Assembly (NCBI GenBank): GCA_903905455.1
Contig: CAIVGN010000055.1
Coordinates: forward strand, 1-64,000
Reading direction: 5' to 3'
From: an uncultured Archangium sp.
Lineage (GTDB): Bacteria > Myxococcota > Myxococcia > Myxococcales > Myxococcaceae
Length of the DNA: 64,000 nucleotides
The notes beneath the pieces were generated by a model that ran no database searches, was not told where the DNA came from, and saw only the letters and a program-made list of their open reading frames with translations. Made by a program: the position numbers and the translations under genes. Positions 40,094 to 46,336 of this stretch are shown here, in pieces (position 1 is the stretch's first letter; each line of letters opens with the position of its first letter).

Positions 40094-40183
40094 CTGCGGC
40101 GAGTAACGGCCCCGGTCGGGGGATGCCGCGGCGTGATGTGGAGACGAGGCGTTTGGCCGGGTGCGTGCCAGACTGCGACCCGC

Positions 40184-42901
<2,718 letters not shown>

Positions 42902-45373: not shown

Positions 45374-46336
45374 ATGCACCACGTCGCTCCCACCGAGTCT
45401 CTTCCGGATCGTTCCTCGCGTGCGCCGTTCAAGTACCCCGTGCGCGTCACCATCGCCGGGTCGCGCGTGGTGCGCGTGCTCTCGGGAGACCTGTCGCTCA
45501 GCGGCATGTTCCTGGTGATGCCCGAGCCGCCCGAGTCGGGCACGGTGGTGACGTTGGCCTTCGAGGCGGGTGGCCGGGTGTTGCCCTTCGCCGAGGGCGA
45601 GGTGGCGTGGCGTCGCAGCGCGGAGACCCGCGGTGGCTTCGGGGTGCGCTTCACGCGGTTCCTCCACCCGCGCGCCGGGGCGCTCATCGACTTCCTCTGC
45701 GAGAACGTGGAGTCGGGCTCCTCGCTCAAGCCCCAGCCGCCTCCGCGGAACTCGCCCCGCCGCTGGTCGGGCCTCGCGGCGCTCGCGGCCGTGGCCACCT
45801 TCTTGGTCACCACCGGCAGCGCGCCGCCCCAGCCGCAGCCCGTCACGCTCGACCCCTCGTTGGTCTGCCGTGCCGACGCCACCGCGTGCCCCGAGGCCGT
45901 CGCCGCCGCGCCGAAGAAGGCGGTGGCGAAGAAGCCGGTGCTCGCCCGGCTCCCCGAGGCCCCGCGCCCGGCGCCGGTGGTGACCCGCACCCTGTTCACC
46001 GCGGCGAAGCCGGCGAGCCTGAGCAGCACGGCCATTCCTTCCGGCGCGGCGCGCCTGGTGACGGTGTCGCGGGTGAGCGGTTCGATGCGCGTGGCCGTCG
46101 ACCCCGTGGCCGGTGGCCTGGTGACGCAGGTGCGGGCGTTGCAGAACCCGCCGCGGCTGGTCATCGACGTCAGCGGCATCGCGCCCGTCGCCGACCACCT
46201 GGTCCGGGTGTCGGACCCGGAGTTGCTGCGCATCGTGGCCCGCAAGAACGGCAAGGGCACGCGGCTGACGCTCGACCTGGCGCGCCAGCCCTCGAAGGTC
46301 ATCCAGCAGGGCGACACGGCGCTGATCAGCTACTGA
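45374..46336 (+). CDS. PilZ - transmembrane - AMIN domain fusion protein
   Basis: A 320-residue protein with an unusual layout. Residues about 15-110 are a PilZ domain: SSRAPFKYPVRVTIAG (Arg side of the c-di-GMP site), then GDLSLSGMFLVMPEPP (the D-x-S-x-x-G motif), then VTLAFEAGG and WRRSAETRGGFGVRF. A single membrane helix (about 132-150, WSGLAALAAVATFLVTT) follows. The distal part (about 245-315) has the AMIN pattern (MRVAVDPVAGGLVTQVRAL, PRLVIDVSG, TRLTLDLAR), which in other proteins binds peptidoglycan or secretin-associated partners. The design would link cytoplasmic c-di-GMP to the periplasmic wall. The start is the ATG at 45374 because the region upstream is polar and low complexity. 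Confidence 0.78.
   Translation: MHHVAPTESLPDRSSRAPFKYPVRVTIAGSRVVRVLSGDLSLSGMFLVMPEPPESGTVVTLAFEAGGRVLPFAEGEVAWRRSAETRGGFGVRFTRFLHPRAGALIDFLCENVESGSSLKPQPPPRNSPRRWSGLAALAAVATFLVTTGSAPPQPQPVTLDPSLVCRADATACPEAVAAAPKKAVAKKPVLARLPEAPRPAPVVTRTLFTAAKPASLSSTAIPSGAARLVTVSRVSGSMRVAVDPVAGGLVTQVRALQNPPRLVIDVSGIAPVADHLVRVSDPELLRIVARKNGKGTRLTLDLARQPSKVIQQGDTALISY

Follow-up and report, generated by a model that had tools for sequence, protein, structure and literature searches.

Does a bacterial cell possess a protein in which a cytoplasmic PilZ domain is wired through the inner membrane to a wall-binding AMIN domain and, if so, does c-di-GMP govern it? The second messenger governs the switch between moving and settling, and few routes that link it to the periplasm through the inner membrane are known (LapD and Alg44). 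The question is raised by one gene of an uncultured Archangium sp., in a 64,000-nucleotide stretch of DNA (the window) that belongs to contig 55 of an 8.6 Mb assembly of 251 contigs. The initial annotation took its product for a transmembrane c-di-GMP effector acting on the wall or on type IV pilus secretins.

Layout and predicted topology of the protein

The reading frame was verified exactly as annotated and encodes 320 aa followed by a stop (Table 1). Its ATG at 45374 agrees with the conserved N-terminus (MHHVAP...) of the orthologues, of which close ones occur in MAGs labelled Archangium sp. and Myxococcales bacterium (phylum Myxococcota); a longer ATG frame from 45251 found no support in that N-terminus and was discarded. 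Pfam and hydropathy give the order PilZ (residues 13-100), hydrophobic segment (approximately 131-150) and AMIN (232-305), and since fold comparison agrees with them, the layout of PilZ, membrane helix and AMIN originally proposed stands. A comparison with four orthologues revealed purifying selection on the gene, with constraint strongest in the PilZ domain (pN/pS 0.27-0.41), intermediate in AMIN (0.39-0.68) and weakest in the helix and linker (0.46-0.90).

Table 1. Features of the gene and its product, in window positions.
Feature	Residues	Position	Strand	Basis
Whole gene, PilZ-TM-linker-AMIN	1-320	45374..46336	+	320 aa; ORF, Pfam and relatives
PilZ domain	13-100	45410..45673	+	Pfam PF07238; PDB PilZ folds, Z up to 8.4
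Shortened arginine motif R13-S-S-R16 (RxxR for RxxxR)	13-16	45410..45421	+	Group A/B alignment
Second PilZ motif DLSLSG	39-44	45488..45505	+	Fits [DN]xSxxG
Predicted transmembrane helix	~131-150	45764..45823	+	Hydropathy and charge bias; helix 135-148 in model
Pro/Ala-rich linker, predicted periplasmic	151-222	45824..46039	+	pLDDT <50 nearly throughout; low constraint
AMIN domain	223-320 (Pfam match 232-305)	46040..46333	+	PF11741; AmiC AMIN Z 10.2

The structure was predicted with AlphaFold2 from five sequences and has a mean pLDDT of 60; in blocks of ten residues, values were mostly 64-78 in the PilZ core and 62-87 in the AMIN core. A phmmer search of the PDB with the 320-aa protein gave no match at E<=10, and TonB, the top PDB match of the family profile, was rejected because it was driven mostly by the Pro-rich linker.

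The protein has a single hydrophobic segment, with a mean hydropathy of 1.77 over residues 134-150. There are four K/R in the 15 residues before the helix and none in the 15 after it and, therefore, the positive-inside rule predicts an N-in/C-out topology. PilZ and AMIN would thus be separated by the inner membrane, as the annotation had them. The linker between helix and AMIN, 70-75 residues or so in the window protein, differs several-fold in length across the family and is much longer in some relatives. Very long, repetitive linkers with AAPV-type and AADKL-type repeats were observed in two paralogues of the longer-linker group B described below (L042:8597-10066 (+) and L055:8927-10363 (+)).

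Distribution and origin of the family

Of 60 relatives searched directly, 20 matched, some of them in PilZ alone. Of the 19 proteins in our alignment A1, six belong to group A (the group of the window gene) and 13 to group B, which has a longer linker; among the latter are a paralogue encoded on contig 46 of the same genome and a protein that comes from a different family of the order. By Pfam, AMIN was matched in all 19 (E<=0.05; best 7.9e-9) and PilZ in 18. A strong match (E <= 3.3e-28) was found in 19 of the 96 genomes of the family, covering nine of its 26 genera, although in two of the 19 (G007 and G118) the AMIN half alone was matched; the other genomes gave matches of about 1e-7 to 1e-15, mostly limited to the PilZ part. 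That 77 of the 96 lack a strong match leads to the conclusion that the gene is not generally required for this way of life. All six group A genomes also have group B, and A falls among the B rows in the PilZ tree, for which reason group A probably arose by duplication.

Does the layout extend beyond this family? When 195 genomes of the phylum were searched, one more genome of the order came to light, as did a third group, C, in family f11; the three of its proteins scanned with Pfam matched AMIN at 4e-12 to 7e-11 and PilZ at 7e-11 to 1e-9, and in further members the A1 profile matched both the PilZ and the AMIN side. A search of 384 genomes, in which at most five candidates per genome were scored so that counts are lower bounds, gave at least nine matching f11 genomes. 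One group C gene is split over two contigs (G122) and the frame of another runs off before AMIN (G124). Eight further proteins from this search were examined with Pfam: five from the same phylum have both domains (L156, L157, L158, L161 and L166), as does one from outside it (L159), and two have PilZ alone (L160 and L164). The last of these (L164; G371 contig 61, 754-1638 (+)) is a PilZ protein from outside the phylum with a hydrophobic C-terminal end and no AMIN. The same layout is, then, present elsewhere in the phylum and, by Pfam, once beyond it.

A first PilZ tree, of groups A, B and C with 29 other PilZ domains of the same genome, grouped A, B and C together (99/91). To a second tree seven more distant proteins were added, and 63 rows were kept after thinning, which removed A/B rows matching six loci, five of them in the A and B of the first tree, together with near-copies. 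In this second tree, which has few columns and whose bootstrap had not settled, A+B (96/99) and C (94/94) are separate, and two proteins from outside the phylum join another PilZ of this genome (98/90). The AMIN tree was without resolution. A single origin of A, B and C is likely but not firm. A common origin for all PilZ-TM-AMIN proteins was considered and set aside; the placement of the outside-phylum proteins in the second tree suggests a second, independent PilZ-AMIN fusion outside the phylum.

The PilZ domain and its contracted arginine motif

The PilZ assignment is clear: PF07238 scored 49.8 bits against a cut-off of 22.5 (4.7e-13), and residues 3-114 of the model superpose on PilZ chains of BcsA (Z 8.4), Alg44 (4xrn, Z 8.3; 4rt1, Z 7.8) and many others. 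The six-stranded PilZ barrel is present, with its strands within residues 23-96, at moderate model confidence. The score for TIGR02266 (gmx PilZ-like paralogues) was 35.6 bits against a cut-off of 68.7, placing the protein outside that family.

PilZ domains that bind c-di-GMP carry two signature motifs, RxxxR and [DN]xSxxG. A c-di-GMP motif region had been pointed out in the window protein (R...GDLSLSGMF), of which the DLSLSG part holds but the arginine part does not: the residues are RSSR, not RxxxR. This is no peculiarity of one sequence. All 24 sequences of groups A and B have RxxR, with both arginines invariant (three, L042, L054 and L072, carry an extra RxxxR string four residues downstream, which was left out of the count); RxxxR is found in all nine group C sequences (eight genomes of another family of the phylum); and [DN]xSxxG is found in all 33. 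Within the genome itself, the 30 of the 38 PilZ matches that were given as loci were checked, and the window protein was the only one with RxxR, all 29 others having RxxxR, although a few of these may be chance as the motif was accepted anywhere in a 20-residue stretch. The group B paralogue, which lies outside those 30, also has RxxR.

We had considered R16xxxK20 as a broken form of the motif but dropped it after alignment with group C, in which RxxxR lies directly before the VDF strand. The alignment instead points to R16 as the second arginine, with one residue lost between the two. In Alg44 the second arginine, R21, is reported to be essential for binding and the first, R17, to be needed for the dimeric ligand (PMC8461298). 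Should R16 correspond to R21 of Alg44, the contraction would affect the arginine important for the ligand dimer.

What, then, becomes of the proposed c-di-GMP effector? Because RxxR replaces RxxxR across the whole branch (24 of 24), so that one signature motif of the two is altered, the claim is weakened and, as it was worded, unsupported. Yet the invariant arginines and the intact [DN]xSxxG argue against a decayed pocket, and we consider the chances that c-di-GMP is the ligand in the RxxR branch to be evenly balanced. Two readings compete here. In the first, a sharper form of the membrane tether proposed below, the contraction is tolerated, R13, R16 and DLSLSG would bind c-di-GMP, and wall engagement would be under inside-out control. 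The invariance of both arginines and of the second motif is in keeping with this, as are the relatives that show the same layout with RxxxR and the c-di-GMP complexes of Alg44 and BcsA among the closest folds; the branch-wide change in arginine spacing is not, and the N-terminal loop is of low confidence in the model. All told, we judge this reading to fall a little short of an even chance. In the second, which we rate somewhat lower yet still as a serious contender, PilZ is a ligand-independent protein-docking module and AMIN anchors it, or its partner, at the septum or pole. The altered motif would fit such a scaffold, and there is a precedent in PlpA of Myxococcus xanthus, reported to retain the binding residues, not to bind c-di-GMP and still to function (PMC8316039), but a mere scaffold would not need both arginines and [DN]xSxxG to be conserved so strictly.

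The AMIN domain

In the window protein the AMIN profile PF11741 did match, so that this part of the initial annotation survives, although the score was marginal (21.2 bits against a cut-off of 20.5, 3.1e-4; 22.9 bits in the whole-genome search). The family profile found the AMIN domains of AmiC and PilQ in the PDB at E 0.017-0.37, which is weak taken alone. In fold comparison, residues 224-320 of the model superpose best on the AMIN domain of Escherichia coli AmiC (Z 10.2, rmsd 3.0, 93 residues), and PilQ AMIN domains follow at Z 9.4 (3jc8, a type IVa pilus model) and Z 8.7-8.9 (Neisseria meningitidis). P259, R261, D265 and R297 are invariant in both family alignments.

Could this part instead be a divergent beta-sandwich with another task, such as binding an outer-membrane or periplasmic protein and not the wall? 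Small heat-shock proteins match it at Z 5.7-6.7, so the margin over unrelated sandwiches is about 3, and the marginal Pfam score and the poor resolution of the AMIN tree also speak for this reading. Against this, AMIN was matched in every aligned protein and down to E 4e-12 in group C, and AmiC is the top fold match; we thus regard the divergent sandwich as improbable. An AMIN domain is naturally read as acting on the wall, and such action is supported as a prediction. AMIN fragments of Pseudomonas aeruginosa PilQ are reported to be recovered with peptidoglycan in pull-downs (PMC5285504), and in M. xanthus AMIN domains are reported to be required to place PilQ at the septum and poles (PMC10653833).

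Gene neighborhoods and the pilus

The Pfam families beside the window gene are a patatin, an ABC transporter, a histidine kinase and a sigma-54 response regulator, and among the neighbors scanned there were no wall-synthesis, division or pilus genes. This neighborhood is hardly kept in the orthologues, although conservation was under-counted because gene calls merged the place of the window gene with an antisense patatin frame. The surroundings of group B are conserved and comprise a MoxR-type ATPase, a VWA/CoxE protein, a 2OG oxygenase, TauE and an ATP-grasp protein; the ATPase, which with a CoxE-like VWA protein occupies L042:5002-7004 (-), recurs at 13 of the 16 other loci of that set. Group C genes adjoin a VKOR-DsbA fusion and two proteins without a Pfam match (one conserved, ~150 aa; the other ~245 aa), and these three, seen at L099, L100, L102 and L106, are possible functional partners of group C. 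As the neighborhoods of A, B and C name no partner, gene context was abandoned as a functional clue and we claim no operon.

Two other genes deserve mention in their own right: a 922-aa Ser/Thr kinase with GAF and a weak PDZ match in its N-terminal part, encoded in the window at 40133-42898 (+), and, on another contig of the source genome, a 653-aa frame next to an LptD-like gene (L147; G000 contig 103, 3244-5202 (-)), in which Pfam at E<=1e-4 gives two AMIN domains and nothing else.

The suggested action on pilus secretins fared worst. A partnership in which AMIN meets the AMIN of PilQ or the pilus machine while PilZ reports c-di-GMP can draw on the pilM gene and the three-AMIN secretin that contig 33 of this genome carries and on the reported influence of c-di-GMP and PilZ proteins on pilus-dependent motility in M. 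xanthus (PMC8316039), but no pil gene lies beside A, B or C among the neighbors scanned, so that a link to the secretin is possible but unsupported and, of the readings weighed here, the least probable.

Comparison with known systems

The closest known design is that of Alg44, the alginate co-polymerase of Pseudomonas, which is described as having an N-terminal PilZ domain, a single-pass helix and a C-terminal periplasmic domain (PMC8461298), an order that the window protein shares. The resemblance ends beyond the membrane, where Alg44 has a membrane-fusion (HlyD-like) domain and the window protein AMIN; no HlyD family matched the latter by Pfam at E<=1. Alg44 partners the Alg8 glycosyltransferase, which has no counterpart among the scanned neighbors of the window gene, and its RxxxR is intact whereas the window protein has RxxR.

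PilQ of M. xanthus and P. aeruginosa shares the AMIN fold, with the wall binding and polar/septal targeting cited above (PMC5285504, PMC10653833). Pfam finds no secretin domain in the window protein, unlike in the PilQ of the same genome, which in turn has no PilZ match, and the window protein is predicted to reside in the inner and not the outer membrane. AmiC is soluble in the periplasm, and no amidase domain such as it carries was found by Pfam in the window protein.

The domains of LapD, degenerate GGDEF/EAL and a periplasmic PAS, are unrelated to those studied here. As a transmembrane c-di-GMP receptor with inside-out signaling, it is nevertheless a precedent for how such a protein may work across the inner membrane (PMC3032545, PMC5231407). 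For M. xanthus, 24 PilZ proteins are described, some with extra domains, and the combinations named in the portion of that account available to us are single-domain, signaling, kinase, acetyltransferase and DnaK/DnaJ, with no AMIN one among them (PMC8316039); judged from that portion, M. xanthus appears to lack the gene. In the open-licence literature, a scope that makes this a weak negative, we found no description of PilZ and AMIN in one protein, and domain-architecture databases may already list it. A PilZ-TM-periplasmic design (Alg44) and AMIN targeting are each already known separately.

A proposed tether from PilZ to the wall

We lean, by a modest degree, toward the protein being a single-pass inner-membrane tether that joins PilZ to a wall-binding AMIN. 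Its cytoplasmic PilZ domain would be connected via one helix and the flexible Pro/Ala-rich linker to the terminal AMIN, which would bind peptidoglycan, probably the denuded glycan of the septum and new poles. Wall binding would then set PilZ, or whatever docks on PilZ, at these sites; in the reverse direction, the state of PilZ (c-di-GMP bound or not, or partner bound) may alter clustering or wall engagement. By analogy, the protein can be read as a PilQ-type AMIN address label on a cytoplasmic regulatory domain. Several observations weigh against the tether: the marginal AMIN score of the window protein, an arginine motif that is not the canonical one, the absence of a strong match from most genomes of the family, and the lack of an adjoining wall-synthesis, division or pilus gene among the neighbors scanned, in a neighborhood hardly kept among orthologues. 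In addition, AMIN-like folds may serve other contacts, as the flagellar protein PflA, also among the fold matches of this part (Z 7.3), illustrates.

A bolder proposal, which we consider doubtful, is that PilZ-TM-AMIN proteins form a widespread undescribed receptor class, assembled at least twice, that relays the state of c-di-GMP directly to peptidoglycan at the septum and poles. The myxobacterial branch would then have retuned its pocket, from RxxxR to RxxR with both arginines kept, perhaps for one c-di-GMP rather than the usual intercalated pair, or for another nucleotide.

If a PilZ domain is indeed wired through the membrane to AMIN, these proteins would provide a direct route for c-di-GMP to the septum and poles, in a layout shared by several families of the phylum and, by Pfam, seen once outside it. 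The RxxR branch is, moreover, a natural experiment in PilZ motif spacing, with canonical and contracted forms occurring in otherwise similar proteins.
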